Under the pieces are notes generated by a model. That model did not search any database. It had not been told where the DNA came from and saw nothing but the letters and a program-made list of their open reading frames with translations. The position numbers and the translations under genes are program-made. Of a DNA stretch of 64,000 nucleotides, positions 10,384 through 42,367 are shown in pieces (within the stretch, counting starts at the first letter, position 1; every line of letters starts with the position of its first letter). Source of the DNA: Pseudomonas sp. WJP1 (GTDB lineage Bacteria > Pseudomonadota > Gammaproteobacteria > Pseudomonadales > Pseudomonadaceae). The stretch is from NCBI RefSeq assembly GCF_028471945.1, contig NZ_CP110128.1, forward strand, positions 3,212,501 to 3,276,500, read 5' to 3'.

Positions 10384-12364
<1,981 letters not shown>

Positions 12365-13849
12365 ATGCAACAGATCAGATCGCAAGTGAACGAGCGCGAC
12401 GGCTTGTTCGAGCTGGAAGCCGGCAGCGATGTCCTCGACAGTCCCCGTTACAACCACGACATAGCACCGACCAAGGTGCGCGAGCGAACCTGGAACAAAT
12501 GGCACATCACGGCATTGTGGGTGGGCATGGCGATTTGCGTGCCGACTTACACCCTGGGCGGGGTACTGACGGCGTACTTCGGCCTGAGTGTCGGTGAAGC
12601 GCTGCTGGCGATTCTGTTCGCCAACATCATCGTATTGATCCCGCTGACGCTCAACGCGTTTCCCGGCACCAAGTACGGCATCCCGTTTCCGGTGTTGCTG
12701 CGTTCGTCCTTCGGCATCTTCGGTTCCAACATCCCGTGCCTGATTCGCGCCCTGGTGGCCTGTGGCTGGTTCGGTATCCAGACCATGTTCGGTGGCCTGG
12801 CGATCCACCTGTTCCTGGGCTCGGTGTTCGAGGGCTGGAAATCCCTGGGCGGCACCGGCGAGGTCATCGGCTTCATGGTGTTCTGGGCGCTGAACCTGTG
12901 GGTGGTGATTCGCGGCGCCGAGTCGATCAAATGGCTGGAGACCCTGTCGGCACCGTTGTTGGTGCTGGTGGGGGTCGGGTTGCTGGTGTGGGCCATGCCC
13001 AACGTGTCGATGACCGAGCTGCTGGCGATTCCGGCCAAGCGTCCAGAAGGCGCGGGCGTGGCCAGTTACTTCGCGGCAGGGCTCACCGCGATGGTCGGGT
13101 TCTGGGCCACGCTCTCGCTGAACATCCCCGACTTCAGCCGCTACGCGAAAAGTCAGAAAGACCAGATCGTCGGGCAGATCATCGGCCTGCCACTGACCAT
13201 GTTCCTGTTCGCCTCCCTGGGCGTGGTGATGACCGCCGCCTCGGTGAAGCTGGTGGGGGTGACGGTGTCCGACCCAGTGACCCTGATCGGCCATATCCAG
13301 AGCCCGGTCTGGGTGGCGCTGGCCATGGCGCTGATCATCATCGCCACGCTGTCGACCAACACCGCGGCCAACATCGTATCGCCCACCAACGACTTCCAGA
13401 ACATCGCCCCCAAGGCGATCAACCGGACCAAGGCGGTGATGCTTACCGGGCTGGTCGGGCTGGCTCTGATGGCCCATGAACTGCTGAAGAAACTCGGCCT
13501 GATCGTTTCCGACCTCAGCCTGGAAACGGTCTACTCCAACTGGCTGCTCGGCTATTCCAGTCTTCTGGGGCCGATTGCCGGGATCATGGTGGTGGACTAT
13601 TTCCTGATCAAGAAGCAGCAGCTGGACCTGGCCGGGCTTTACCGTGACGACGTGTATCCGGCGTGGAACTGGAACGGTTTTATCGCCTTCGGAGTGCCGG
13701 TGGTGTTGACGTTGCTGTCCCTGGGCAGCGATGTGTTCAGTTGGTTCTACAGCTATGGCTGGTTTACCGGCTCGGCCCTGGGTGGGTTGATTTATTACGG
13801 GTTGTGCGCGATGCGGCCCAGCCCATCTGTCGCAAAATCTGCGGTGTGA
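12365..13849 (+). CDS. NCS1 family nucleobase/hydantoin permease
   Basis: 494 aa with 12 predicted membrane segments. The N-terminal signature SPRYNHDIAPTKVRERTWNK is typical of NCS1 transporters for uracil, cytosine, allantoin and hydantoins. LSLNIPDFSRYAKSQKDQI lies mid-protein and NTAANIVSPTNDFQNI later. I chose ATG 12365 because GGAG (12356-12359) precedes it at good spacing. The ATG at 12329 has no ribosome site. It imports the pathway substrate, probably uracil, thymine or a dihydropyrimidine. Confidence 0.9.
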   Translation: MQQIRSQVNERDGLFELEAGSDVLDSPRYNHDIAPTKVRERTWNKWHITALWVGMAICVPTYTLGGVLTAYFGLSVGEALLAILFANIIVLIPLTLNAFPGTKYGIPFPVLLRSSFGIFGSNIPCLIRALVACGWFGIQTMFGGLAIHLFLGSVFEGWKSLGGTGEVIGFMVFWALNLWVVIRGAESIKWLETLSAPLLVLVGVGLLVWAMPNVSMTELLAIPAKRPEGAGVASYFAAGLTAMVGFWATLSLNIPDFSRYAKSQKDQIVGQIIGLPLTMFLFASLGVVMTAASVKLVGVTVSDPVTLIGHIQSPVWVALAMALIIIATLSTNTAANIVSPTNDFQNIAPKAINRTKAVMLTGLVGLALMAHELLKKLGLIVSDLSLETVYSNWLLGYSSLLGPIAGIMVVDYFLIKKQQLDLAGLYRDDVYPAWNWNGFIAFGVPVVLTLLSLGSDVFSWFYSYGWFTGSALGGLIYYGLCAMRPSPSVAKSAV

Positions 13850-13856
13850 GGGCGGG

Positions 13857-13939
13857 CCCCATCGCTGGCAAGCCAGCTCCCACAGGGTTCTCGGGCGTTC
13901 ACAATACCTGTGGGAGCTGGCTTGCCAGCGATGAGGCCT
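13857..13939. repeat. REP pair (inverted)
   Basis: Arms ATCGCTGGCAAGCCAGCTCC and complement, between the NCS1 permease and the amidohydrolase genes of one transcription direction. Confidence 0.88.
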
Positions 13940-13991
13940 CAAAGACACCACGCAATTGCCTAAACCATAAGAACAGCCTGAGGAGATCCCC

Positions 13992-15266
13992 ATGAACGCA
14001 GCCGTAGACGTTCTGCAATCGACCCATCAGCACATCAACCGCGACCGCCTGTGGCAGTCGCTCATGGAGCTGGCCAGACTCGGCGCCACGGTCAAGGGCG
14101 GCGTCTGTCGCCTGGCCCTGACCGACCTCGATCGCCAGGCCCGCGATACGTTCGTGAAGTGGTGTGAGGAAGCCGGCTGCACTGTCAGCATCGACGCCGT
14201 CGGCAATATTTTCGCCCGCCGCCCTGGGCGCAACCCGGACCTGCCACCGGTGATGACCGGCAGCCACATCGACACCCAGCCCACGGGCGGCAAGTTCGAT
14301 GGTTGCTTCGGTGTACTGGCCGGCGTCGAAGTGCTGCGCACCCTCAATGACCTGAACATCGAGACCGAAGCGCCGCTGGAAGTGGTGGTCTGGACCAACG
14401 AAGAAGGCTCGCGTTTCGCCCCGTGCATGATGGGCTCCGGCGTGTTCGCCGAGAAATTCACCCTGGAGGAAACCTTGGCCAAGGTCGATGCCGAGGGTGT
14501 GACGGTGGGCGAAGCGCTCAACGCCATTGGCTACGCGGGAACCCGCAAAGTCAGCGGCCACTCAGTGGGTGCCTATTTCGAGGCGCACATCGAGCAAGGC
14601 CCGATCCTCGAAGATGAACGCAAAACCATTGGCGTCGTCATGGGCGCCCTCGGACAGAAATGGTTCGACCTTAAACTGCGCGGCGTTGAAGCCCATGCCG
14701 GCCCCACGCCGATGCACCTGCGCAAGGACGCACTGGTCGGCGCAGCGGTGATCGTCGGTGCCGTCAACCGTGCAGCCCTGAGTCATCAGCCCCATGCCTG
14801 TGGCACCGTTGGTTGTCTGCAAGCCTATCCTGGCTCGCGTAACGTCATCCCGGGCGAAGTGCGCATGACACTGGACTTCCGTCACCTGGAACCGGCGCGT
14901 CTGGACTCGATGATCGCCGAAGTCCGCGAAGTCATCGAAACCATCTGCGAAGAACACGGTCTGACCTTCGAACTGACCCCGACGGCAGATTTCCCGCCGC
15001 TGTATTTCGACAAGGGTTGCGTCGAAGCGGTACGTAGCGCAGCGCAAGGGCTGGGCCTGTCACACATGGACATCGTGAGCGGCGCAGGGCACGACGCAAT
15101 CTTCCTTGCCGAGCTGGGACCGGCCGGGATGATCTTCGTACCCTGTGAAGGCGGCATCAGCCACAACGAAATCGAAAACGCCGCTCCGGATGATCTGGCG
15201 GCCGGGTGTGCGGTGCTCTTGCGGGCGATGCTGGCGGCTTCGGCGGCGATCGCTGGCGTCAGTTAA
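13992..15266 (+). CDS. Zn-dependent N-carbamoyl-beta-alanine / N-carbamoyl amino acid amidohydrolase
   Basis: 424 aa M20-family hydrolase. The metal ligands sit in TGSHIDTQPTGGKFDGCFG (His, Asp), WTNEEGSRFAP (Glu-Glu), AHIEQGPILE (His) and SGAGHDAIFLA (C-terminal His). It removes the carbamoyl group from N-carbamoyl-beta-alanine or beta-aminoisobutyrate, releasing CO2 and ammonia. This is the third reductive pyrimidine step. AGGAGAT precedes the ATG. It is the last gene of the block and is followed by a strong terminator. The family also includes allantoate and L-carbamoylase enzymes, but the context favours the pyrimidine role. Confidence 0.92.
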   Translation: MNAAVDVLQSTHQHINRDRLWQSLMELARLGATVKGGVCRLALTDLDRQARDTFVKWCEEAGCTVSIDAVGNIFARRPGRNPDLPPVMTGSHIDTQPTGGKFDGCFGVLAGVEVLRTLNDLNIETEAPLEVVVWTNEEGSRFAPCMMGSGVFAEKFTLEETLAKVDAEGVTVGEALNAIGYAGTRKVSGHSVGAYFEAHIEQGPILEDERKTIGVVMGALGQKWFDLKLRGVEAHAGPTPMHLRKDALVGAAVIVGAVNRAALSHQPHACGTVGCLQAYPGSRNVIPGEVRMTLDFRHLEPARLDSMIAEVREVIETICEEHGLTFELTPTADFPPLYFDKGCVEAVRSAAQGLGLSHMDIVSGAGHDAIFLAELGPAGMIFVPCEGGISHNEIENAAPDDLAAGCAVLLRAMLAASAAIAGVS

Positions 15267-15313
15267 GCAGGTAGCGGATAACCCCATTGGGTGTGTAACT
15301 ACTTCAATTAAAG

Positions 15314-15337
15314 AAACGGCCTTGCGGCCGTTTTTTT
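15314..15337 (+). terminator. Rho-independent terminator
   Basis: Stem AACGGCC / GGCCGTT with loop TTGC followed by seven T residues. It ends the amidohydrolase transcript and insulates the large gene downstream. Confidence 0.9.
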
Positions 15338-15465
15338 ATAGCTGGGTGAAAAACCACGATATTCAAAAAAAGCGGTTTCAAAAATCCTGTGTGTCGGGGA
15401 GTATGCCCGCCATTTGTGCATGTATTAACAGTCGTGCTGTCAAGTTCACCATGGAGTAATGGTTA

Positions 15466-18400
15466 ATGACCATCAAGATCGAGGGGGTAATCGCCAACAA
15501 GATTGGCTTCGCTTCCCACCAAAATGCTGTGCCGGTTCTGCGAGAGCTGACAGTGCACAACCACGGTGAGGCAGACTTCAACGATCTTGAACTGGAGCTT
15601 GTGGCAGATCCTCCCTTTCTCGAAGGTAAAACGTGGCGCCTGGACCGTCTGGGTAAAGGTTCGACGCTTCATATCTCTGAGCGCAATCTGGCGCTTAATG
15701 CCGGCTATCTTGCTGACCTTGCAGAAAGTCTTGCGGCAACCATCGTTCTGCGTCTTCGCTGCAAAGAGGAAACGCTCTGCAGCCAATCATTTGCGGTTGA
15801 GCTTCTGGCAAAAAATGAATGGGGCGGTATTAACTCCATGCCGGAGCTGTTGCCCGCGTTTGCCATGCCGAATGACCCTGCGGTCGATCGAATCTTGAAG
15901 TCTGCATCGGACGTTTTGCGTCGTGCAGGAAAGGCAGATGGCATTGACGGATACGAAAGCAAATCCAGGACCAGGACATGGGAACTGGCCTCCGCGATAT
16001 GGTCGGCTGTGTGCGGGTTAAGACTGAGTTATGCGTTACCCCCCGCAAGTTTTGAAACCCAGGGGCAAAAGGTTCGAACGCCAGGCCTTGTTCTGGAGGG
16101 CGGTGTAGCGACGTGCCTGGATACGGCATTGCTTTTCGCGGCAGCTCTGGAGCAGGCCGGGTTGAATGCGCTGTTGATCATGACCAAAGGGCATGCGTTT
16201 GTTGGTGCCTGGCTTCAACCACAAGAGTTCTCTCAGCTCATTACGGACGAAGCCAGCGCGGTACGTAAGCGTATCGACTTGAAAGAATTGCTCGTATTTG
16301 AAACGACGCTCGCAACCCGTTTTCCTTTGCCGGGTTTCAGCCAGGCAATAAGCAATGCAGAGCGGCAAATCAATGATGAAGACTTCATCATGGCCATTGA
16401 TATACATCGGGCGCGTATGCAGCGCATCCGACCTTTGGCGTCGTCGGTGTCTGTGCCTAAGTCTGGTCCCGCTGAAGAGCCGCAAGAAGTATCAGAGTCT
16501 TTGGAAGAAGCTCCCCCTTTGCCTGGCTTCGACATTGAGATATCTACGGATGCAGATTCCCCCGCCGGCAAGTTAACACTTTGGCAGCGCAAACTTCTTG
16601 ACCTCACCACACGCAACCGACTTCTGCACTTGCCCGATAGCGCAAAGGGTGTCCGCCTGATTTGTCCTGAACCGGCGCAATTGGAGGATCAGCTTGCCAG
16701 CGGAAAGCGTATTCGAATTGTCTCGGTGCCAGATCTCGAAGCGGGCGGGCGAGATGCGGCTCTGTATGAGCAACAGAACAGTGAAAGTTTGCGCGATGAG
16801 TATGCCAGGACGGCGCTGTCTCGAGGCGAAGTACTTGCCACCCTGGAAAAGAGCAAGCTTGAAGTTGCATTGATCGATCTCTATCGCAAAGCCCGGAGCG
16901 ATCTTGATGAGGGGGGCGCAAATACGCTGTTTCTTGCCCTCGGTTTTCTAAAATGGAAAAAGTCGGCAGACGATCCGAAAACCTATTCGGCTCCCTTGAT
17001 TTTGCTACCGGTGAAGCTTGACCGTAAAAGTGCTTTGTCGGGCGTGACCATGACGCTGCTTGAAGATGAGCCGCGCTTCAACCTGACATTGCTCGAGTTG
17101 CTGCGACACGATTTCGAGTTGGTCATCCCGGGGTTGGAGGGGGAGCTTCCAAGCGATGAAAACGGTATCGATGTAACCGGCATCTGGAATACGGTCAGAC
17201 GCGCGATCAGGGATGTGCCGGGATTCGAAGTCACCACGGAGCTCGTGCTGGGGACTTTTTCCTTTGCGAAATACCTGATGTGGCAGGATCTGGCTGCGCG
17301 TTCGGAACAGCTTCTGAAAAGCCCCATGGTCAAGCACCTGTTGGAAAGAAGCATTGGCGGTGAAGGTTATTCGACGGTGGGTGACTTTCCTCAACCCAAC
17401 GAACTGGACAGGAAGGTCAACCCGGCCGAGCTTTTTACACCGTTACCGGCGGATTCTTCTCAGTTGGCGGCCGTGGTCGCTTCGGCCAGTGGTTGTGACT
17501 TTGTACTCGACGGGCCTCCCGGTACCGGTAAATCCCAAACCATTGCAAACATGATTGCGCACAACCTTGCCCTGGGTCGTAGGGTCTTGTTCGTCGCTGA
17601 GAAAATGGCGGCGCTGGACGTGGTCTATCGTCGACTTGAAGAACAGGGGTTAGGCGAATTCTGTCTTGAACTCCATTCGAGCAAGACGTCGAAAGTTGAA
17701 GTGCTCAAGCAACTCGAGCGAGCGTGGGACGTTCGTGATGCGCTGACCGCTGAAGAGTGGACAGCTGAAACGGCGAAGCTGCATACGCTGAGAAATCGAC
17801 TCAATGAAGTGGTTGAGCTGATGCATCGCCGCGCACCAAACGGTTTGTCCGTGCACCAGGCCATTGGCCGGGTTGTTCGCGATGGCGATGCCTCGATACC
17901 GCGTATTGGATGGCCAGAGGGCACAACTCACGACGCCCAGGCTTACGCTCGGTTGCACGATGTCGCCAGACGCCTCGATCTCAATAGCCAGGCTGCACGA
18001 GAGCTGTCTGCAAGCTTTTCACTGTTGGCCCCTACGGATTGGTCGAACGGATGGCAGGAAGCAATTGTTGCTGCAGCGAGTGATCTTCCGGGCGCCATCG
18101 AGCGACTCAAGGTCGCCAGCACCAGTTTGCTGAAAGCAACCGACCTTCCACTGGCGGTTGCAAGTAGCGAGGATATCGAACGACTGATCCAGTTTGTCGC
18201 GGTCCTGATGGATACCCACGGCATTGATCTTTCATTTGTCTTTACGCTGAACGCGAGCGCGAAGATCGGTGCTGCCAAAAAAGCTGCTCAATTACTCGCA
18301 GAATATCGAGAGATCGAGCAGTCGCTGTCCCTGCGGTATGCGCCAGACGCTTGTCGCACTATCAAACTTGAACAGGTCAAAAACGATTGGGATACGGCGA

Positions 18401-21315
18401 AGGCCAGATTCTGGTTCCTGGCGACGCTTGGTAAAAAGAAGGTCGCTAAAAATCTGGCAATGGCAGGGGGCGCCGTCGGAGTTCCGCAAGTCGAGTCGGA
18501 CCTGTTCAAGCTAAACGAGCTGCGTAACCTGCTTACCGCCCTGGACGGCCTGGCTGCGGATGTGAGTTCCGTGCCCGGATGGAACGGCGTGTCCAGTGAT
18601 GCACCAACCATGGCTCAAGCGTGCGAGCTGGGCGAACGTCTAAGGACGATGATCAGCGCCAGAGCCGAGTCTGCCGAAGACTTGATTTCCTTGCGCGCAG
18701 CGACTGAAAAGCTTGTCGTAAAAGCCAATGAGTTACTGGGCGGTGGCGGATTTATTGCTTCGGCATTGCAGCAGTTGAAAAATGCATTCGCTGACTTCAA
18801 CGAAACTGCCAAGCGATTCAACGACTTGGGCAACCGGCCAATTGCGCAAACGCTCACAATCGAATCTCTGCTGGAGGCTGCCAATGCAATCATCCGTCAG
18901 GAATCCAAGCTGAAGGCCTGGTGTGATTGGTGTCGAGTCAGGGAGGAGGCGGTCGCGTCGGGGCTTCAACCTTTAAGTGATGCGTTGGCGTCGAACGCAT
19001 TGCCCGAAGGTGGCACTGTCAATGCTTTCGAAACTGCCTACGCTCGCTGGTTTGCGACCGTGATGATTGATGCGCAGCCGTTGCTGCGAAACTTCGTACC
19101 TGCCGAGCACACAAGCGACATTGAGGCGTTTGTTCGTCTTGATGAGGATTTGTCCAAACTCACAGTGCGGTACATACGAGCGAAGCTGTGTGGTGTGATT
19201 CCGTCGAAAAACGAGATTGGCAAGCAGGGTGGCTTTGGCATTCTCAAGCACGAGTTGCAGAAGTCCCGACGCCACAAGCCCGTGCGACAACTGGCTGTCG
19301 AGATGGGGGACGCCATGACGAAGCTTGCCCCTTGCATGCTCATGAGTCCGCTTTCGATTGCACAGTATCTACCGACGGACCTGGCGCTTTTCGACCTGGT
19401 TATTTTCGATGAGGCTTCGCAAATCGCGCCGTGGGACGCCATTGGTTCGATTGCAAGAGGTAAGCAGGTTGTGATTGCGGGAGATCCCCGACAAATGCCG
19501 CCGACGAACTTCTTCAATCGTGCTGCGTCCGCGACAGAGGATGATACGTCGGAAGATATGGAAAGTATCCTGGATGAGTGTCTCGGCGCGGGTATTCCAA
19601 GCCACAGCCTTAGCTGGCACTACCGTAGTCGTCATGAAAGTCTGATTGCTTTTTCAAACCACCGTTACTACGACAGTAACCTGATTACTTTCCCGGCATC
19701 AGAGACCCGCGCAAGCGCTGTGGAATGGCGACGTGTCGATGGCGTTTATGCGAAGGGTAAAGGGCGACACAATCAGGCAGAAGCCGAGGCTATCGTTACT
19801 GAAACCGTGAAGCGTTTGTTGGACCCAGCCTTTGTCGCTGCCGGTCATAGCATCGGGATCATTACGCTCAACACTGATCAACAGAGACTGATTACCGATT
19901 TGTTGGACCGGGCGCGCCAGCAGTTTCCGCAGATCGAGCCGTTCTTCCAGGATGATATCGCTGAGCCTGTCGTGGTCAAGAACCTGGAGACGGTGCAAGG
20001 CGATGAGCGAGATCTGATCATGTTGGGTATTGGCTACGGTCCTACCGAACCCGGTGCCCAGGTCATGTCGATGAACTTCGGTCCCTTGAACAAAGAGGGT
20101 GGGTGGCGCCGCTTGAATGTCGCGATTACACGTGCGCGCAGGGAAATGTTGGTTTTTTCATCTTTCGACTCGTCAATGGTCGATTTGAATCGCACCAACG
20201 CCCGGGCTGTACGGGATTTGAAGCACTTTGTCGAGTTTGCCCAACGTGGCCCGAAGGCGCTTGCCGAGGCGGTGCAGGGATCTGTAGGTGGCTATGATTC
20301 GCCATTTGAAGAAGCCGTTGCTCAAGGGCTGAGACGCAAGGGTTGGCAGGTTGTGCCTCAAGTTGGTGTATCACGTTTCCGAATTGACCTGGGGATCGTC
20401 CATCCGGATAGACCGGGCGACTATCTCGCCGGTGTCGAATGCGATGGCGCGACTTATCACAGTGCAGCAACAGCCAGAGATCGCGACAAGGTTCGTGGCG
20501 CAATCCTTAAAGGACTGGGATGGAAACTGGTTCGACTGTGGTCTACCGAATGGTGGATTGACAAGTCTGGAGCACTTGATCGTTTGCATGCATCACTCGA
20601 GAGTCTGTTGAGTGAGTCGCGCGCAGTCCCGGCGCTAGCACAGCCTCAAGAGCTACCTGTTCCTCATCTGCTCCTGGTACAGACGCCGTCGGCAGAAGCT
20701 ACCGTTGAACAGACAGAGAAGATTGCCAGTACTTCCACGCAGGATCGGCTCGTTGACGAGAAGGCGGAAATCAGGATTGCCGGCGCGTTTGCTGCTCCCG
20801 CCAAGCCTGCAATGAAGGGCGAGTATCGCGCCACAGACTTCACGAATGTGAGTGACCGGATTCAGGCCGACGCGTTTTACTCTCAAGAGTACGACGCTGT
20901 TCTTTCAGATTTGATTGCCCATGTGTTAGTTCAAGAAGCTCCAATACTCGATTCGTTGTTGGTTCAGCGGATTGCCAGGGCTCATGGTTTTCAGCGCTCT
21001 GGACGTCTGATTCGTGAACGGGTACTGGATTTGACGGAGAAAAATCATCACCTGAGGAGCGACCCCGTCGAAGGTCTGTTCGTCTGGCATTCTGAAAGCG
21101 ACGTTGCTGGCTGGAATAGTTATCGGATTGCCGGCGCGTCAAATGATGCTCGGTCAGTAGAAGAGATTGCAGCTGAAGAATTACTGGTCGTCGCGTCCTT
21201 GATTTCGGCAGGTGACAGACCGCACGAGATCGCCAAGGCATTCGGTTTGAAGCGTTTGACGAGTGCGGCACGTGAGCGGATAGAGTTGGTGATGAAGTCA
21301 GGAACAGGTCTCTAG
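15466..21315 (+). CDS. DUF4011 / SF1 helicase / Vsr-like nuclease / DUF3320 giant protein, probable anti-phage defence
   Basis: 1949 aa. Domains in order: a beta-rich N-terminus (1-130); a transglutaminase-like fold with Cys217 (GGVATCLDTAL) and His243 (KGHAFVGAW); DUF4011 from about 370 (LWQRKLLDLTTRNRLLHL); an SF1 helicase with Walker A GPPGTGKS (683-690), Walker B VIFDEASQ (Asp1315-Glu1316), GDPRQMPPTNFF, WHYRSRHESL and NVAITRARR (about 1551); a Vsr/DUF559-like nuclease with Glu1615, Asp1641 and VECDGATYH (Glu1658); and a C-terminal DUF3320 region from about 1800. From memory, this architecture has been reported as a single-gene phage-defence system (Hhe) in a large screen. GGAG precedes the ATG. 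The G+C looks lower than in the neighbours, which suggests transfer. It is intact, with no frameshift. Confidence 0.85.
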   Translation: MTIKIEGVIANKIGFASHQNAVPVLRELTVHNHGEADFNDLELELVADPPFLEGKTWRLDRLGKGSTLHISERNLALNAGYLADLAESLAATIVLRLRCKEETLCSQSFAVELLAKNEWGGINSMPELLPAFAMPNDPAVDRILKSASDVLRRAGKADGIDGYESKSRTRTWELASAIWSAVCGLRLSYALPPASFETQGQKVRTPGLVLEGGVATCLDTALLFAAALEQAGLNALLIMTKGHAFVGAWLQPQEFSQLITDEASAVRKRIDLKELLVFETTLATRFPLPGFSQAISNAERQINDEDFIMAIDIHRARMQRIRPLASSVSVPKSGPAEEPQEVSESLEEAPPLPGFDIEISTDADSPAGKLTLWQRKLLDLTTRNRLLHLPDSAKGVRLICPEPAQLEDQLASGKRIRIVSVPDLEAGGRDAALYEQQNSESLRDEYARTALSRGEVLATLEKSKLEVALIDLYRKARSDLDEGGANTLFLALGFLKWKKSADDPKTYSAPLILLPVKLDRKSALSGVTMTLLEDEPRFNLTLLELLRHDFELVIPGLEGELPSDENGIDVTGIWNTVRRAIRDVPGFEVTTELVLGTFSFAKYLMWQDLAARSEQLLKSPMVKHLLERSIGGEGYSTVGDFPQPNELDRKVNPAELFTPLPADSSQLAAVVASASGCDFVLDGPPGTGKSQTIANMIAHNLALGRRVLFVAEKMAALDVVYRRLEEQGLGEFCLELHSSKTSKVEVLKQLERAWDVRDALTAEEWTAETAKLHTLRNRLNEVVELMHRRAPNGLSVHQAIGRVVRDGDASIPRIGWPEGTTHDAQAYARLHDVARRLDLNSQAARELSASFSLLAPTDWSNGWQEAIVAAASDLPGAIERLKVASTSLLKATDLPLAVASSEDIERLIQFVAVLMDTHGIDLSFVFTLNASAKIGAAKKAAQLLAEYREIEQSLSLRYAPDACRTIKLEQVKNDWDTAKARFWFLATLGKKKVAKNLAMAGGAVGVPQVESDLFKLNELRNLLTALDGLAADVSSVPGWNGVSSDAPTMAQACELGERLRTMISARAESAEDLISLRAATEKLVVKANELLGGGGFIASALQQLKNAFADFNETAKRFNDLGNRPIAQTLTIESLLEAANAIIRQESKLKAWCDWCRVREEAVASGLQPLSDALASNALPEGGTVNAFETAYARWFATVMIDAQPLLRNFVPAEHTSDIEAFVRLDEDLSKLTVRYIRAKLCGVIPSKNEIGKQGGFGILKHELQKSRRHKPVRQLAVEMGDAMTKLAPCMLMSPLSIAQYLPTDLALFDLVIFDEASQIAPWDAIGSIARGKQVVIAGDPRQMPPTNFFNRAASATEDDTSEDMESILDECLGAGIPSHSLSWHYRSRHESLIAFSNHRYYDSNLITFPASETRASAVEWRRVDGVYAKGKGRHNQAEAEAIVTETVKRLLDPAFVAAGHSIGIITLNTDQQRLITDLLDRARQQFPQIEPFFQDDIAEPVVVKNLETVQGDERDLIMLGIGYGPTEPGAQVMSMNFGPLNKEGGWRRLNVAITRARREMLVFSSFDSSMVDLNRTNARAVRDLKHFVEFAQRGPKALAEAVQGSVGGYDSPFEEAVAQGLRRKGWQVVPQVGVSRFRIDLGIVHPDRPGDYLAGVECDGATYHSAATARDRDKVRGAILKGLGWKLVRLWSTEWWIDKSGALDRLHASLESLLSESRAVPALAQPQELPVPHLLLVQTPSAEATVEQTEKIASTSTQDRLVDEKAEIRIAGAFAAPAKPAMKGEYRATDFTNVSDRIQADAFYSQEYDAVLSDLIAHVLVQEAPILDSLLVQRIARAHGFQRSGRLIRERVLDLTEKNHHLRSDPVEGLFVWHSESDVAGWNSYRIAGASNDARSVEEIAAEELLVVASLISAGDRPHEIAKAFGLKRLTSAARERIELVMKSGTGL

Positions 21316-22475
21316 GTGGCACCTGCCAGCGGGCATATACCTGACGGATCAAGCTTTTCACTGACCACAAGATCCACCTGGTGAATCGGTTTGCCCCGAT
21401 GCCTGAGCATGCCGCCCTGGCGTTGATGCATCACCGCCGTCATCTCGGCGAGTATCGCCAGGGCCACGCTCTGCGGCGCATCGCCACCCAGGTCGAGGCC
21501 CATCGGGTAGTGCAGTGCCGAGTGGCCCGGGCCGATTTCCGCCAGCAGGCGTTCGGTGCGCTCCCTGGGGCCGAGCTGGCCGATGTAGGCGGGCGCGGCT
21601 TGCAGCGCCAGTCCGAGCCAATGGCGGTCCTGGCGGTAGCTGTGGGTCATCACCGCCACAAAGGCGCCGTCGATCAGCGGGGCCAGGTCGAACGGGTTGT
21701 CGAGGCTGGCGAGGATAACGGCGTCGGCTTGCGGGAAACGTTCGGCGCGGGCGAAGTGGCTGCGGCTGTCGACGACGCTGACGTGCCAGTCCAGCAACTT
21801 GGCCATGCGCACCAGCGGCTGTGCGTCGTGGCCCGCGCCGATAATCACCAGGCGGGGCGGTGGGGCGATGTACTCTAAAAACACTTCGACCTCACCACGG
21901 GCGTTGCAGTAGAGCCGTGTCGAGGACTTTTTCTGCGCCAGGGTCTTGTGCAGGTCACGGCGGATCGCCTCGTTCAGTTGCAGGTTGCGCAGGCTGCCCT
22001 CGGTGTCTGACAGCAGACGGTCACCGACCCGGGCCGATGCATCCCGGGAACTGGCAATCACCGTGGCCATGGCGGCCGGTTGTTGACGGTCGCGCACCCG
22101 TCGCAGCAGTTCGATGGCCGGGGAAGGTGATTTCGCCCGAAGGCGTTCGAGCATGACGAACACCGTGCCGTTGCAACCCAGGCCAAAGGTCAGGGCGCTT
22201 TGCTCGTCGTCTTCATCCTCTGTGGCGCCGGTGCTGTAGCGGCGCACCACCGGTTCGCCGGAATCGGTGAGCCACCAGGCTTTTTTCGCCAGGTCCTGTT
22301 CCAGGCAACCGCCGCTGACGGTGCCAACGGTGCGGCCGTGAATGGGGATGAGCATCCGCGCACCGGGACGGCGGTAGGCCGAGCCTTCCACCTTGACCAC
22401 GGTGGCGAGGATGCTTTCTTCGCCGTGGTGGGCGGCGGTGTCGATGGCTTGTAGAAGATCATTGAGGCCGGACAT
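21312..22475 (-). CDS. XdhC/CoxI family molybdenum hydroxylase maturation protein
   Basis: 387 aa from ATG 22475 (MSGLNDLLQAID). Upstream codons in the frame come from REP sequence. The N-terminal XdhC domain has EGSAYRRPGARML and GTVSGGCLEQDL. The C-terminal domain is Rossmann-like, with VIIGAGHDAQPLV and VVDSRSHFARAERFP. XdhC proteins bind molybdenum cofactor and help sulfurate and insert it into xanthine-dehydrogenase-type enzymes. The likely client is the hydroxylase encoded at 31944-34612. Its stop (CTA at 21312-21314) overlaps the stop of the giant gene tail to tail. It is the last gene of the minus-strand catabolic operon. Confidence 0.9.
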   Translation of the reverse strand: MSGLNDLLQAIDTAAHHGEESILATVVKVEGSAYRRPGARMLIPIHGRTVGTVSGGCLEQDLAKKAWWLTDSGEPVVRRYSTGATEDEDDEQSALTFGLGCNGTVFVMLERLRAKSPSPAIELLRRVRDRQQPAAMATVIASSRDASARVGDRLLSDTEGSLRNLQLNEAIRRDLHKTLAQKKSSTRLYCNARGEVEVFLEYIAPPPRLVIIGAGHDAQPLVRMAKLLDWHVSVVDSRSHFARAERFPQADAVILASLDNPFDLAPLIDGAFVAVMTHSYRQDRHWLGLALQAAPAYIGQLGPRERTERLLAEIGPGHSALHYPMGLDLGGDAPQSVALAILAEMTAVMHQRQGGMLRHRGKPIHQVDLVVSEKLDPSGICPLAGAT

Positions 22476-22503
22476 GGCAATAAATCCTATGCATCGTGGA
22501 GAT

Positions 22504-22598
22504 CCCTGTGGGAGCGAGCCTGCTCGCGATTGCGGTACATCAGTCAACATCGATGTAGGTGACCCACCGCTATCGCGAGCAGGCTCACTCCTACAGGG
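22504..22598. repeat. REP pair (inverted)
   Basis: Arms TGTGGGAGCGAGCCTGCTCG and complement (right arm with TAC variant), in the gap between the aminohydrolase and the XdhC gene. Confidence 0.87.
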
Positions 22599-22617
22599 GA
22601 GCGGGGTGGCTTGAGGA

Positions 22618-24006
22618 TCAGTTGTCGATGTTCATTAACTGCCGCACCCCATCCCACGCCTCGGCCCGCATCCGCTGCATGTCCAGCCCCGGGATCTCGC
22701 CGTTATCGACCACCACCCGGCCACCGACCAGGCTGTACTTCACCGCAATCGGCTCACCCGCCACCACCGGCGCGACGGCAATGTCGTGGAAGCCGAAGAA
22801 GCGCGGATGCTCCAGACCGTAGATCACCAGGTCCGCCGCCTGGCCGATTTCCAGGGTGCCGACCGCACCCAGCCCGAGCACCCGGGCACCGCCGGCCGTA
22901 CCCCAGTGGATGACATCTTCGGCGGTGGTGGCAGAGGCGCCTTGCTGCGCCCGGTGAATCAGCCACGCGGTGTTCGCTTCGCCGACCATGCTGCCGGACT
23001 CGTTTGACGCCACGCCATCCACGCCAAGGGAAATCGGTACCCCGGCCTCGAACATCTGCGGCACCGGCGCGACGCCGCTACCGAGGCGCGCATTGCTCAC
23101 CGGGCAGTGGGAAATGCCGGTGCCGGTTTGCGCGAGCATGCGGATTTCACCGGGTTGCATGTGCACCGCGTGGGCGAACCACACGTCCGGGCCGAGCCAT
23201 TCGTGTTCGGCGACGAACTCTACCGGCAGGCAGTTGTATTTCTCGCGGCAGAAATTCACGTAGTTCTGCGTTTCCGACAGGTGCGTGTGCAGGCGCAAAC
23301 CGAGGCCGCGTGCGCTGTGGGCGAGTTCGCGCAGCAGCGTCGGCGGCAGAGAAAACGTCGGTGTGGTCGGCGCGACCACTACCCGGCGCATGGCGTGCGG
23401 AGTGTCCTGGTGATAACGCGACTTCAGCCGTTCGATGTCACCGACCATCTGGTCGAGGGTTTCCGGTTGCAGCGCGGTTTTCGAGAACCCCGGATGGGCG
23501 CTGGCGGACTCCAGCGCGCCGCCCCGGCACAGCACGAAACGCAGGCCGAACTGATCGGCCATGTCGAACAGCAGGTCACCGGTCTCCGTGGTGCCGTTGG
23601 CATGGTAGAGGTAATGATGATCGGCGCAGGTGGTCACGCCCGACAGCAGCAGTTCGGCCATGCCCAGTTGTGCGGCGATCCGCGCCAGTTGCGGCGTGAA
23701 GCGGTTGAGGCGCGGGTAGGGCACGCTGGCCAGCCAGCCTTGCAGGTCCTGGTTCAATCCTTCGGGCACGGCCTTGAGCAAGTTCTGGAACAGGTGATGG
23801 TGGGTGTTGATCCAGCCCGGATACACCACCGCGTGGCGCGCATCGATCAGGCGCTCGCCGGGTTGCGCTTGGAGACCCGGGGCCATTTCGGCGATGCGCC
23901 CGTCGACGATGCGGATGTCCACGGCGCCGGCCCTGGCCCGCGGGCCACGCAGGCCGGTCATCACCGCCACAGGATTCTTGATCAGGATGTTTTGCAGTTG
24001 AGTCAT
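22618..24006 (-). CDS. Aminohydrolase of the 8-oxoguanine/isoxanthopterin deaminase type
   Basis: 462 aa metal-dependent hydrolase of the TRZ/ATZ branch. Ligand motifs: PGWINTHHHLFQN (HxH), LRLHTHLSETQNYV, and SLGVDGVASNESG with the metal Asp. GTGISHCPVSNARLGSGVAPV is the substrate-side signature of this branch. Relatives deaminate aromatic N-heterocycles (8-oxoguanine, isoxanthopterin, hydroxyatrazine). The start at 24006 is preceded by GGAG. The NCS2 permease stop lies 12 bp upstream, so the two are one transcript. The exact substrate is unknown. A pterin or oxopurine is the best guess from the family and the permease. Confidence 0.82.
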   Translation of the reverse strand: MTQLQNILIKNPVAVMTGLRGPRARAGAVDIRIVDGRIAEMAPGLQAQPGERLIDARHAVVYPGWINTHHHLFQNLLKAVPEGLNQDLQGWLASVPYPRLNRFTPQLARIAAQLGMAELLLSGVTTCADHHYLYHANGTTETGDLLFDMADQFGLRFVLCRGGALESASAHPGFSKTALQPETLDQMVGDIERLKSRYHQDTPHAMRRVVVAPTTPTFSLPPTLLRELAHSARGLGLRLHTHLSETQNYVNFCREKYNCLPVEFVAEHEWLGPDVWFAHAVHMQPGEIRMLAQTGTGISHCPVSNARLGSGVAPVPQMFEAGVPISLGVDGVASNESGSMVGEANTAWLIHRAQQGASATTAEDVIHWGTAGGARVLGLGAVGTLEIGQAADLVIYGLEHPRFFGFHDIAVAPVVAGEPIAVKYSLVGGRVVVDNGEIPGLDMQRMRAEAWDGVRQLMNIDN

Positions 24007-38104: not shown

Positions 38105-40129
38105 ATGACCAATGAAGAAACATTCGTAACAGCTCAGCAAAACGGTTGGGAAGAAGCCAAATTCTTCTTCAACGACAAGCTGGTCGAAGGGCCCATTATG
38201 CTGTGGCGTGGGCAGGAGCATGAAATCAGGGTGGAAATGCCCGAGACCTTTACGGGGAAAATATCGCTCAAGAAAGAGGATTCCCGCGACCTGGCCCTCA
38301 CCGCTTCCCCGGCGTTCGACGTCCCTGTTGATCCAGTCGACAAAGCATTCCGTTGGAAAGTGACGTCGGTAGACGATAACAAGAGTGGCAATATCGTCCT
38401 GGTTTTTTCGAGCCATGACGTGGTCGTGGAATGGCGGCATCCCTGTGTGGTGCGCTCGGACAATTTGGGCGATGACTGGGGTTTGCAGCTTAAGGGCAAT
38501 GTTCCTCTACCTTCTCATCCCATCATGTTAAGGCACTCGTGGGGGGAAGTGTTTTATTCGGTTAACAAAACTGGTGCTAACGCGCAGGGGCTAAGGATGA
38601 GTTACCGCATCTTCCCTCCTCTTGAAGCGGGTGATGTGGAAATTCATTATGTTACGGGCGGTTGGAGTGTTCTCGCGTACGGAAAACCAGTAAGTGGTCG
38701 GTTCGAATTAATAGTTGAGGAAGAGGGTATCCCTAACTCGCTTATAGTGCCTTGTCTGTTGTTGGCGAGTAATTTAGAAGCGGAAGGGGAGATAAAAGTC
38801 GGAGGTAAAGACATTTCGCCTATGGGAAATATTTATTTTCGTGATCGCCCGGTGCGCATAACCTTCGCGCCCAATCCTGACAGTCTGATCAAGGAGGTTC
38901 CGCTCTGGTTGAAGGGGCGAGTCAGTCCTCCACTTGTCCCAGGCGATATTCGAAGTTCACCGGCGTTCGATGTGAAACAGACAGGAATATATGAATGGGA
39001 CATAACCGGGTCAAACAGAAGCGGAACTTTTGTGCTGACTCTTTGGGGCGGCAATGGAGCGTCAAGTAGGAATGACTACGAGCTTGAACTCCCTGGAAAA
39101 TTGTTGTCGGCTAACCTGGAAGATGAGGCTGATGTCCTCATTAACGGTAATCCGCCATTTGAGGGAATGAAGTTCGTTCATGGCAATACCTATTTCCTCA
39201 AGCTCAGGCTAAAAGAAGGCAGCCCATTGGAGGGGCAAGCTGTACAGCTGCATTGCGCAGGCCTGGAGGGGTACAATCCTGGAGACCTGACGTGTGAGCC
39301 GGGCTTTGACCTGCCGCAAACTTCCTACTATGGATGGAACTTGACCGCCGTACAGGGAGCAGGAAAGTTTCAACTGAGCCTGACCGGCGAGGGTATGGAC
39401 AAGGCGCTAGAGCTGCCGATTTTCAGATTGGTGGAGGAGGATGTTTCGAAGTTCTTTGAGGTCCGGTTCGATGGAAAGACTTTGCCGGATGGCCAGCAAG
39501 CGCTTGCCACTCGATACGGTCGGCACACCATTACACTGATGCCTAAAAGTGGTGCGCCTGAGGGTGATGTCAGACTCAACTGGGGTACAGAGAATCCTGG
39601 GCTGGGGGTGGAAGTTACGCCGCCTATCGGGGTTGCCCAGACGGTCGATCGAATCCTGGGAGCGACCTGGTCACTGGCATGCCTTGGCGAAGAGGGCGAG
39701 TTTTCCGTGAAAGCGGAGTTGGAAGGGTCGCCTTTGCCGGCGCTGGAGCTTCCAGTGTCGTTGTCGGCTGGACAATTTATTATGCGCTTTAGGGCGCTTG
39801 GCATTTCTCAGCCTTTGCCACCGGCAAGCACAATCGGTGCGGAACTGTTCCCTGGGGGAGGATGGGGCCTTATCCCTTCAGTATTGGTGACGCAGGGAGG
39901 CGTACCGGTTTCCGGTGTCAAGGTCGAGTTCATTACGCCTGATCATCCCATTGGTTACGGCACAACTGGAGATGCCGGAACCACCGGAAGCTCCGTGCCA
40001 GTCAAGTACTATCCCAAAGAGGAGCGCCTGATTGAGTTTTTGGCAAGAACGACCGAACCAACAGGTCGCATTTCCATGATTCGGTTACTGGTAAAGCTTA
40101 TTCCCGCAAGCGGAACTCCCAGTAAGTAA
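38105..40129 (+). CDS. Ig-like repeat protein of unknown function, copy 1
   Basis: 674 aa with no signal peptide or membrane segment. It appears to be about five related beta-rich repeats of roughly 110 residues (about 14-120, 121-225, 226-335, 336-445, 446-555). Each begins with an F/V..V.INGNPP type strand and contains a phrase such as SPAFDVPVDPVDKAFRW or EPGFDLPQTSYYGWNLT. A C-terminal invasin-like domain follows (GVPVSGVKVEFITPDHP, then GYGTTGDAGTTGSSVPV). The G+C is lower than that of the neighbours. It is followed by a hairpin terminator and a second paralogue. I do not recognise the function. A surface or secreted adhesin-like role is possible but unsupported. Confidence 0.75.
   Translation: MTNEETFVTAQQNGWEEAKFFFNDKLVEGPIMLWRGQEHEIRVEMPETFTGKISLKKEDSRDLALTASPAFDVPVDPVDKAFRWKVTSVDDNKSGNIVLVFSSHDVVVEWRHPCVVRSDNLGDDWGLQLKGNVPLPSHPIMLRHSWGEVFYSVNKTGANAQGLRMSYRIFPPLEAGDVEIHYVTGGWSVLAYGKPVSGRFELIVEEEGIPNSLIVPCLLLASNLEAEGEIKVGGKDISPMGNIYFRDRPVRITFAPNPDSLIKEVPLWLKGRVSPPLVPGDIRSSPAFDVKQTGIYEWDITGSNRSGTFVLTLWGGNGASSRNDYELELPGKLLSANLEDEADVLINGNPPFEGMKFVHGNTYFLKLRLKEGSPLEGQAVQLHCAGLEGYNPGDLTCEPGFDLPQTSYYGWNLTAVQGAGKFQLSLTGEGMDKALELPIFRLVEEDVSKFFEVRFDGKTLPDGQQALATRYGRHTITLMPKSGAPEGDVRLNWGTENPGLGVEVTPPIGVAQTVDRILGATWSLACLGEEGEFSVKAELEGSPLPALELPVSLSAGQFIMRFRALGISQPLPPASTIGAELFPGGGWGLIPSVLVTQGGVPVSGVKVEFITPDHPIGYGTTGDAGTTGSSVPVKYYPKEERLIEFLARTTEPTGRISMIRLLVKLIPASGTPSK
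39458..39776 (+). repeat. 319-bp perfect repeat, copy 1
   Basis: Identical base for base to 41708-42026 (offset 2250). The match is broken by single mismatches at each end and stays near-identical to the stop codon. It covers the fifth repeat domain of each Ig-like protein. Confidence 0.9.
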
Positions 40130-40348: not shown

Positions 40349-42367
40349 ATGAACGACGAAATAGATTTTGTATTAGCGAAGCCAGAAGGTTGGGAACAAG
40401 CCAGATTGTTCATCAACGGTAATGAGGTTATGGAAGGAGAGTATATTGTCCTCCACCATTTGAAAGAGAATTCTGTAGTCGTCGAACTTCCTACCACAAT
40501 TGCGCGGGTTCTGCGTATGGAGTTGGAAAATCCTGGCTTTCAGGACGTTAAAGCTTCTCCGAATTTCGGAAGTCCCGTTAATCAAGTCGATGGTAAATTC
40601 AACTGGCAGATTACGCTGAGCAGGGGCGAGCGTGGGCGAGTGTGGTTGGATCTTGAGAGTCCGGATATCGATCTCCCCTGGAAACTTACGTGCCTGGTGA
40701 TGGCGGCAAATCTCCTTGATGAAGTGGAGAGTATTATGGTGGGCAGTGTTGCTTTTCCGCCCGGCGTGGCGGGAGGGATTTTAATGTACAGGGAATCTCC
40801 TCATAAGTCCAGCCGACGTATCAGTTTGGTTTACAAGCAGGACAGCCAGTTGATGTACTACCCGATACGCATGAAAGCAACCCCGATCACCGGATTAAAC
40901 GACGGTGACCTTCAGGTGACGTGTATCCCGCCGAATACGTGGGAGTTCTGGGGCGAAAATAACAATGGTACCTTCGAGCTTGATTTCTCGGGGACAAGCT
41001 TTATCACTGGCGCCACGCTGCCCGGAAAAGTGATATCGACTTCAATACCGGAAGAATTTAAAGAGTTACTGATAGACGGTAAGCCATTTTCGCAGGAGAT
41101 TGTGTTGTTCAGGGATGTACCTCGTGACTTCGAGTTGACCTTCCATGAGCATAATCCGTTAAAGGGCAGTCAGATTTTCCTGAAACTCATACCGGTAAGC
41201 GGATTGGATCAAAGCAATCTGGTGGTGACCACAACCAGCACCCATGAATGGGTGGCACAGGCCAACAGCAAGAGTGGCACATTCGGAGTAGAGATAGAAC
41301 TCCGGTTTGGAGCAAGCCCCCATTATGGCTATCGTTTTGGTATTCTCAAAGTGCTCTCACCCAACCTGGAAGATGAGGTCGACGTCCTTATTGACGGCAA
41401 ACCCCCAGTTGAGGGTATGAAGTTCATTCATGGCACTAGCTATTTGCTTACGCTCTGGCCTAAAAAAGGCAGCCCATTGGAGGGACATGCGCTACAGCTG
41501 CATTGTGCAGACCTGGAGGGGTTCAACCCTGGAGACCTTAAGTGTGAACCGGGCTTTGACCTGCCGCAAACGTCTAATTATGGATGGGTCTTGACCCCAT
41601 TACAGGGTTTTGGAAAGTTTCAACTGAGCCTGACCGGCGAGGGCATGACCAAAGCGCTCGAGCTGCCGGTTTCCAGATTGGGGCAGGATGATATCTCGAA
41701 GTTCTTCGAGGTCCGGTTCGATGGAAAGACTTTGCCGGATGGCCAGCAAGCGCTTGCCACTCGATACGGTCGGCACACCATTACACTGATGCCTAAAAGT
41801 GGTGCGCCTGAGGGTGATGTCAGACTCAACTGGGGTACAGAGAATCCTGGGCTGGGGGTGGAAGTTACGCCGCCTATCGGGGTTGCCCAGACGGTCGATC
41901 GAATCCTGGGAGCGACCTGGTCACTGGCATGCCTTGGCGAAGAGGGCGAGTTTTCCGTGAAAGCGGAGTTGGAAGGGTCGCCTTTGCCGGCGCTGGAGCT
42001 TCCAGTGTCGTTGTCGGCTGGACAATATATTATGCGCTTCAGGGCGCTTGGCATTTCTCAGCCTTTACCACCAAAAAGCACAGTCGGTGCGGAACTGTTC
42101 CCTGGGGGAGGATGGGGCCTTACCCCTTCAGTATTGGTGACTACGCAGGGAGGCGTTCCGGTTTCCGGTGTCAAGGTCGAGTTCATTGCGCCTGATCATC
42201 CCATTGGTTACGGAACAACTGGAGATGCCGGAACCACCGGAAGCTCCGTGCCAGTCAAGTACTATCCCAAAGAGGAGCGCCTGATTGAGTTTTTGGCAAG
42301 AACGACCGAACCAACAGGTCGGGTTTCCATGATTCGGTTACTGGTAAAGCTTGTTCCCTCAAGCTGA
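40349..42367 (+). CDS. Ig-like repeat protein of unknown function, copy 2
   Basis: 672 aa paralogue of the preceding gene with the same repeat architecture. The N-terminal half is strongly diverged (starts MNDEIDFVLAKPEGWEQARLF). From about residue 335 (VLSPNLEDEVDVLIDGKPPVEG) the similarity rises sharply, and it becomes identical DNA for 319 bp. It has no signal peptide or membrane helices. The N-termini align as FVTAQQNGWEEAKFFFN and FVLAKPEGWEQARLFIN. The pattern fits an old tandem duplication with recent gene conversion of the 3' part. The function is unknown. Confidence 0.75.
   Translation: MNDEIDFVLAKPEGWEQARLFINGNEVMEGEYIVLHHLKENSVVVELPTTIARVLRMELENPGFQDVKASPNFGSPVNQVDGKFNWQITLSRGERGRVWLDLESPDIDLPWKLTCLVMAANLLDEVESIMVGSVAFPPGVAGGILMYRESPHKSSRRISLVYKQDSQLMYYPIRMKATPITGLNDGDLQVTCIPPNTWEFWGENNNGTFELDFSGTSFITGATLPGKVISTSIPEEFKELLIDGKPFSQEIVLFRDVPRDFELTFHEHNPLKGSQIFLKLIPVSGLDQSNLVVTTTSTHEWVAQANSKSGTFGVEIELRFGASPHYGYRFGILKVLSPNLEDEVDVLIDGKPPVEGMKFIHGTSYLLTLWPKKGSPLEGHALQLHCADLEGFNPGDLKCEPGFDLPQTSNYGWVLTPLQGFGKFQLSLTGEGMTKALELPVSRLGQDDISKFFEVRFDGKTLPDGQQALATRYGRHTITLMPKSGAPEGDVRLNWGTENPGLGVEVTPPIGVAQTVDRILGATWSLACLGEEGEFSVKAELEGSPLPALELPVSLSAGQYIMRFRALGISQPLPPKSTVGAELFPGGGWGLTPSVLVTTQGGVPVSGVKVEFIAPDHPIGYGTTGDAGTTGSSVPVKYYPKEERLIEFLARTTEPTGRVSMIRLLVKLVPSS
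41708..42026 (+). repeat. 319-bp perfect repeat, copy 2
   Basis: Second copy of the sequence at 39458-39776, in the equivalent domain of the second paralogue. Confidence 0.9.

Follow-up and report, generated by a model that had tools for sequence, protein, structure and literature searches.

Organisation of the locus

The window (the whole stretch of 64,000 nucleotides that was analysed) belongs to a 7.0-Mb Pseudomonas genome assembled as a single contig. It carries one intact frame of 1949 codons, from ATG to stop, at exactly 15466-21315 on the plus strand, as a preliminary description of this DNA had proposed. Full-length relatives of its product, up to 98% identical, occur in the protein database, which marks the frame as a real gene rather than a random one. 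It is called proA here, after the NCBIfam family that its 1949-residue product matches (see below). The gene is located in a pyrimidine/purine-catabolism region of the chromosome, in between a gene for an M20-family hydrolase/carbamoylase (13992-15266, plus strand) and an XdhC-family gene (21312-22550, minus strand) that overlaps the proA stop by 4 bases. A hairpin with an 8-base stem, followed by a T-run on the plus strand, separates the M20 gene from proA (15314-15333); it was read from the sequences, the scan having listed only the minus-strand reading, and a like hairpin occupies the equivalent place in two relatives, L099 and L003. No direct or inverted repeats of at least 12 bases are found in 15200-15480, Rfam has no match in 12000-24000, and no recombinase gene is seen beside proA. 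A 33-base inverted repeat with a 29-base gap (22504-22598) spans the xdhC start; it looks like a REP-type element, and similar copies are found in the fetched regions of relatives.

From the N- to the C-terminus, ProA is predicted to comprise an Ig-like β-sandwich (residues 1-116, 15466-15813, by predicted fold), a transglutaminase-like domain (residues 120-325, 15823-16440), DUF4011, an SF1 helicase, a Vsr-fold nuclease and DUF3320, the latter within a mostly helical C-terminal region. All are encoded on the plus strand. Pfam places DUF4011 (PF13195) at residues 376-546 (16591-17103; 154.8 bits, cut-off 22.2), the MTES_1575 nuclease at 1614-1711 (20305-20598; 116.4 bits, cut-off 38.2) and DUF3320 at 1802-1851 (20869-21018; 59.3 bits, cut-off 25), while the helicase matches AAA_12 (57.9 bits) and AAA_11 (56.3 bits) above a cut-off of 27 each. 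These matches, together with the predicted nuclease fold, bear out the order DUF4011, SF1 helicase, Vsr-like nuclease, DUF3320 that had been read from the sequence. Among the HMMs proposed as checks, DUF4011 and DUF3320 exceed their cut-offs, DUF559 (16.1 bits against 20.6) and transglutaminase remain below theirs, and the Vsr assignment holds through MTES_1575.

The helicase and nuclease core

Several pieces of evidence identify the motor as a UPF1-like SF1 helicase: the AAA_11 and AAA_12 matches, partial matches to UPF1, SMUBP-2 and SEN1, and the presence of Walker A, Walker B and later motifs. The solved structures related in sequence are SMUBP-2, SEN1, UPF1/NAM7 and DNA2, each covering parts of the helicase; a sequence search with residues 1-660 found none. 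The Walker A motif GPPGTGKS (17512-17535) contains Lys689, and its residues G683, T687, G688, K689 and S690 are invariant, as are D1315, E1316, A1317 and S1318 of the Walker B motif DEASQ (19408-19422). A variable region (residues 801-1240, 17866-19185), delineated by alignment and dN/dS, lies between the helicase motifs, and the insertions of long ProA forms near residues 930-1033 fall inside it. The C-terminal nuclease is assigned to the Vsr fold by the MTES_1575 match and by its predicted structure, in which E1615, D1641, E1658, D1660, H1665 and D1672 are the acidic and histidine residues that, from knowledge of the fold, we take to act in catalysis. Foldseek returned no match under 0.001 with the C-terminal model. 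The helicase and nuclease residues, including Lys689 and Glu1658 at the positions given beforehand, are unchanged in 183/183 aligned sequences, counts that are not independent because the alignment rows are redundant, and the claim of intact motifs stands. The core residues are also retained in the six relatives of differing form that were inspected.

The N-terminal module

The transglutaminase-like N-terminus, another element of the preliminary description, holds by its predicted fold and candidate catalytic residues and fails by Pfam score. Pfam transglutaminase models do not match the whole protein at E 0.1, nor residues 1-335 alone; Transglut_core reaches 13.0 bits (E 0.13) with residues 119-335 alone, against a cut-off of 23. 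The label consequently needs evidence from the fold. In the predicted structure Cys217 stands at a helix start, with His243 and Glu279 on the following strands, and the three residues are unchanged in 181/183 aligned sequences, that is, in every one having the domain. Foldseek with the N-terminal model is weak, with one match under 0.001. Fold and Cys217-His243-Glu279 thus support an Ig-like sandwich followed by a transglutaminase-like domain in the model, with a weak sequence signal.

Whether this domain would cleave or merely bind is a finely poised matter. The chance that it is a purely structural or binding module without catalysis falls a little short of even. The third catalytic residue of the transglutaminase fold is usually Asp, and its replacement here by Glu, the Transglut_core score under the cut-off and the existence of PDC-S37-like forms devoid of the domain would fit such a module; retention of the Cys, His and Glu wherever the domain exists, together with a dN/dS of 0.05-0.06 in this part (against L099, L003 and L004), argues for catalysis.

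The sequence RNRLLH (residues 383-388), within DUF4011, fits the HEPN motif R-x4-6-H. Arg383 is found in 177/183 aligned sequences and His388 in 167/183, with Asn at 388 in 15/183. The DUF4011 model mixes helices and strands, residues 382-393 being modelled at low confidence, and Pfam has no HEPN match in ProA.

Family membership and relation to known systems

By sequence, the protein is an intact, solitary member of an already named defence family, and the kind of system is not new. It matches the NCBIfam equivalog NF058533, 'anti-phage protein ProA', over its full length and far above the cut-off (2196.9 bits against 1500; residues 15-1927, profile positions 2-1900 of 1903), with no difference found. 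The experiment behind this name was not found in the literature searched. Other Pseudomonas members of NF058533 are ~2210 residues long, the one inspected (L039) having insertions around 930-1033. The PADLOC candidate PDC-S37 (2023 set) also matches (1192 bits, residues 369-1944, profile positions 9-1531 of 1550), a coverage judged along the model length as PADLOC supplies no cut-off for it. PDC-S37 shares the DUF4011, helicase, nuclease and DUF3320 stretch but lacks the Ig-like/transglutaminase-like module, so that the N-terminal 368 residues of ProA fall outside the model; this layout is that of the ~1600-residue relatives. These two assignments support the earlier proposal of a self-contained anti-phage protein.

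Other systems are more distant. Hhe (NF042953; PADLOC PDLC02194) was rejected on score (829.1 bits against an NCBIfam cut-off of 2000), its models matching in three stretches, the best at residues 1097-1762. Mokosh (MkoA, MkoC) gives matches of 35-86 bits centred on the second half of the helicase, and none of full length. Going by the name alone, ProA may be what DefenseFinder calls 'Prometheus', which is a guess; in the accessible portions of PMC12629846 and PMC12390725 the latter name appears undescribed.

The accessible part of a 2013 paper (PMC3710099) describes giant relatives, of the MTES_1575 type, that combine HEPN, a transglutaminase-like peptidase, an SF1 helicase, a Vsr DNase and winged helices, and that come without modification genes. 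A self-contained defence was proposed there, in which the giants would recognise invading DNA directly and add a protein-cleaving line of defence. ProA has in common with these giants, as presented in that part, the transglutaminase-like domain, the SF1 helicase, the Vsr nuclease and the lack of a modification gene, and their winged helices overlap the shared DUF3320. The giants carry a HEPN RNase, whereas ProA starts with an Ig-like sandwich.

Forms, distribution and selection

ProA matches over the cut-off are present in 29/297 Pseudomonas genomes, that of the window included. Three forms are found in this set: ~2210 residues, 1942-2000 residues (the class of the window protein) and 1733-1759 residues; a fourth, of ~1600 residues, scores below the NF058533 cut-off. 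The closest named records are from P. brassicacearum (92%), P. frederiksbergensis (88%) and P. sputi (84%). The five ~1740-residue forms opened (L135-L139) lack DUF3320 and six ~1600-residue forms (L122-L127) lack the N-terminal module, the core being kept in both. Home-made HMMs, applied to 24 loci, detected neither the N-terminal module in trans in the fetched stretches of L122-L127 (8.4 kb only for L126) nor DUF3320 elsewhere in those of L135-L139; three of L122-L127 have weak DUF3320-like scores at the C-terminus.

Outside chromosomes, 68 of 72,556 plasmid records match at least 80% of ProA, and 2 of 50,697 phage records match it, one covering 86% at 33% identity. With an E. coli-titled record as query, whose ProA is 59% identical to that of the window, megablast matched no E. 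coli copy in the collection. The relatives on two Klebsiella plasmids (H16, H17) and one Rhizobium plasmid (H28) match as two pieces; they appear interrupted, since IS21-family genes are annotated under the match.

The gene is under purifying selection, with a whole-gene dN/dS of 0.10 against L099 and 0.08 against L003, and such low values indicate that it is in use. Against the same two relatives, the helicase, DUF4011, nuclease and DUF3320 parts have dN/dS values of 0.02-0.09, residues 801-1240 stand at 0.12, and the Ig-like part, at 0.17-0.19, is the highest among the folded regions; two linkers reach 0.13-0.53, as compared to 0.02-0.19 for the folded regions.

A relative without the gene and the defence context

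The nearest sampled relative by PreA (98%), genome G273, has the same gene order without ProA: M20 and xdhC are adjacent, ~70 bases apart. The stretch of the window without counterpart in it extends approximately from 15249 to 21348, according to the blastn ends. The difference does not amount to a clean insertion: the final M20 codons diverge, and between the two match ends lie ~100 bases peculiar to G273. The G+C content of proA, 54.6%, is below the 62.4% of the flanks (up to 6 kb per side), as had been claimed. Low G+C is on its own insufficient as proof of import, because the gene has a higher G+C than its flanks in both L128 and L130, and about the same in L005. Taken with the relative devoid of the gene, the patchy presence in the genus and the lack of a second system, it supports the lone import suggested at the outset.

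A metabolic region with no other defence gene had also been described, and PADLOC detects no second complete system among the 50 other window ORFs; three families match one ORF each, the best at E 7.6e-12 (CARF-like). Around 22 relatives from the genome collections, twelve PADLOC families each match one of 118 neighbour ORFs at 1e-15, so that the location of ProA gives little guilt by association. These 118 ORFs remain from 138: 17 that L003, L004, L013 and L099 contribute at the M20/guaD site were omitted, as were 3 shorter than 120 residues. Of 121 Pfam families among the neighbours, most of the 25 listed are those of regulators, transporters or metabolic enzymes. The greedy choice behind the neighbour and window ORF sets can take wrong-strand frames; in one set, two operon genes lost in this way were restored by hand, with others. 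The plasmid regions are richer in defence-type genes than the genome-collection neighbourhoods: of four opened, three hold AbiJ-NTD4, multiubiquitin/ThiF, or TIR and PDDEXK genes nearby, and the fourth a toxin-antitoxin pair and a bacteriocin.

Elsewhere in the window, in its part of lowest G+C, two tandem paralogues (38105-40129 and 40349-42367, plus strand; 674 and 672 residues, 57% identical overall) have nearly identical last ~220 residues and strongly different N-terminal halves, a pattern suggestive of gene conversion or of an exchange of N-terminal parts. They have no Pfam match at 0.001 and no PADLOC match at 1e-5.

Proposed repeated arrival in one neighbourhood

ProA lies beside M20 in one (L099) of 18 usable regions from the 20 genomes closest by PreA; two regions were unusable (L104 ends before the M20 gene, L113 ~100 bases past it), and those of L100 and L106 stop ~4 to 4.5 kb beyond M20. 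G276 (PreA 98%) has ProA (95%) at the site, followed by a CMD-family gene and a sigma-factor-like gene, then xdhC. The distance between ProA and M20 is 0.4 kb in L003, 2 kb in L004, where a CMD-family/sigma-factor-like pair lies in between, and 2.7 kb in L013, with guaD directly after; in L129 ProA adjoins guaD and not M20. None of these neighbours is found inside the fetched flanks of L005, L006, L025, L032/L128 and L130-L134.

The CMD-family gene and its probable sigma-factor partner (L099:13915-15246, L003:15977-17308, L004:8193-9524) follow ProA in L099 and L003, precede it in L004 and are missing from the corresponding place in the window; the two extra genes of G276 resemble the L003 pair. 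As the pair varies in place and presence, the spot gains and loses other genes too. L004 and L022, both from one 1.4-Mb 'joined contig' of P. frederiksbergensis, share 25.8 kb of identical sequence in opposite orientation, which may be an assembly duplication, and L022 was left out as identical.

The ProA copies at the site fall into three lineages: {window, L099, L003}, {L004} and {L013, L129}. Within lineages, ProA dS (0.25-0.49) resembles the values of M20, guaD and pbuX or is lower; between lineages it ranges from 1.17 to saturation, whereas the neighbour genes reach only 0.37-0.67. This contrast points to ProA having arrived, or having had its allele replaced, at least three times in one neighbourhood. 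A weaker codon bias of proA could inflate dS, yet it would not account for the low within-lineage values. In a tree of 30 proteins, twelve of them database proteins without site assignment, the label 'at this site' needs five changes, three forced by well-supported branches; these three may be one gain and two losses. A shuffle test of the label is not significant (124/500 as low). The family being already known, the repeated arrival of distinct ProA versions would be the mildly new part.

Proposed function and alternatives

The gene is probably an intact ProA-family single-protein phage-defence gene, alone in a catabolism region. The SF1 motor would load on foreign nucleic acid, probably at DNA ends or replication intermediates, and its ATP-driven movement would carry the Vsr-fold nuclease at the C-terminus into position for cleavage. 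Target choice or holding may be aided by the variable middle region and by DUF3320. The Ig-like/transglutaminase-like module may add a protease-like or protein-binding step, missing in some shorter relatives, that would control the nuclease or harm the infected cell.

The neighbourhoods, with their little guilt by association, count against a defence role, as does the available portion of PMC10250203, where a DUF4011 gene, not equated with ProA, is one of the core genes that flank a defence hotspot in P. aeruginosa: a core gene is unlike a typical accessory defence gene. That gene, the metabolic neighbours and the strong purifying selection would suit a resident housekeeping helicase-nuclease that acts in DNA repair or recombination and has been lost patchily. 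Such a role is improbable in view of its restriction to 29/297 genomes of the genus, the different sites in different relatives, the between-lineage dS far above that of the neighbours at one site, and the 68 plasmid records with a long match. Death of the infected cell before phage release, by a triggered nuclease or transglutaminase-like domain attacking host molecules, is a possibility of some substance, though a doubtful one. A protease-like domain with conserved Cys-His-Glu would suit it, and the accessible part of PMC3710099 proposes suicide by HEPN and protein cleavage for the related giants; against it stand the absence of a Pfam HEPN domain in ProA and the six short relatives without the transglutaminase-like module in the protein or the fetched flanks.

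A broader extension of the single-protein defence reading is rather unlikely as a whole: ProA would be a two-effector polypeptide (a helicase-fed DNase and a Cys-His-Glu protease) whose N- and C-terminal modules are exchangeable sensors or effectors round a fixed core, and also a one-gene cargo landing repeatedly at M20/xdhC-guaD without a visible recombinase. The relatives lacking modules are natural truncations for probing the roles of the transglutaminase-like domain and DUF3320, and the pairing of this intact, lone gene with a near relative devoid of it at the same place makes a comparison of gain and loss possible. If true, the repeated arrival in one metabolic neighbourhood would show that single defence genes are able to spread outside defence islands.
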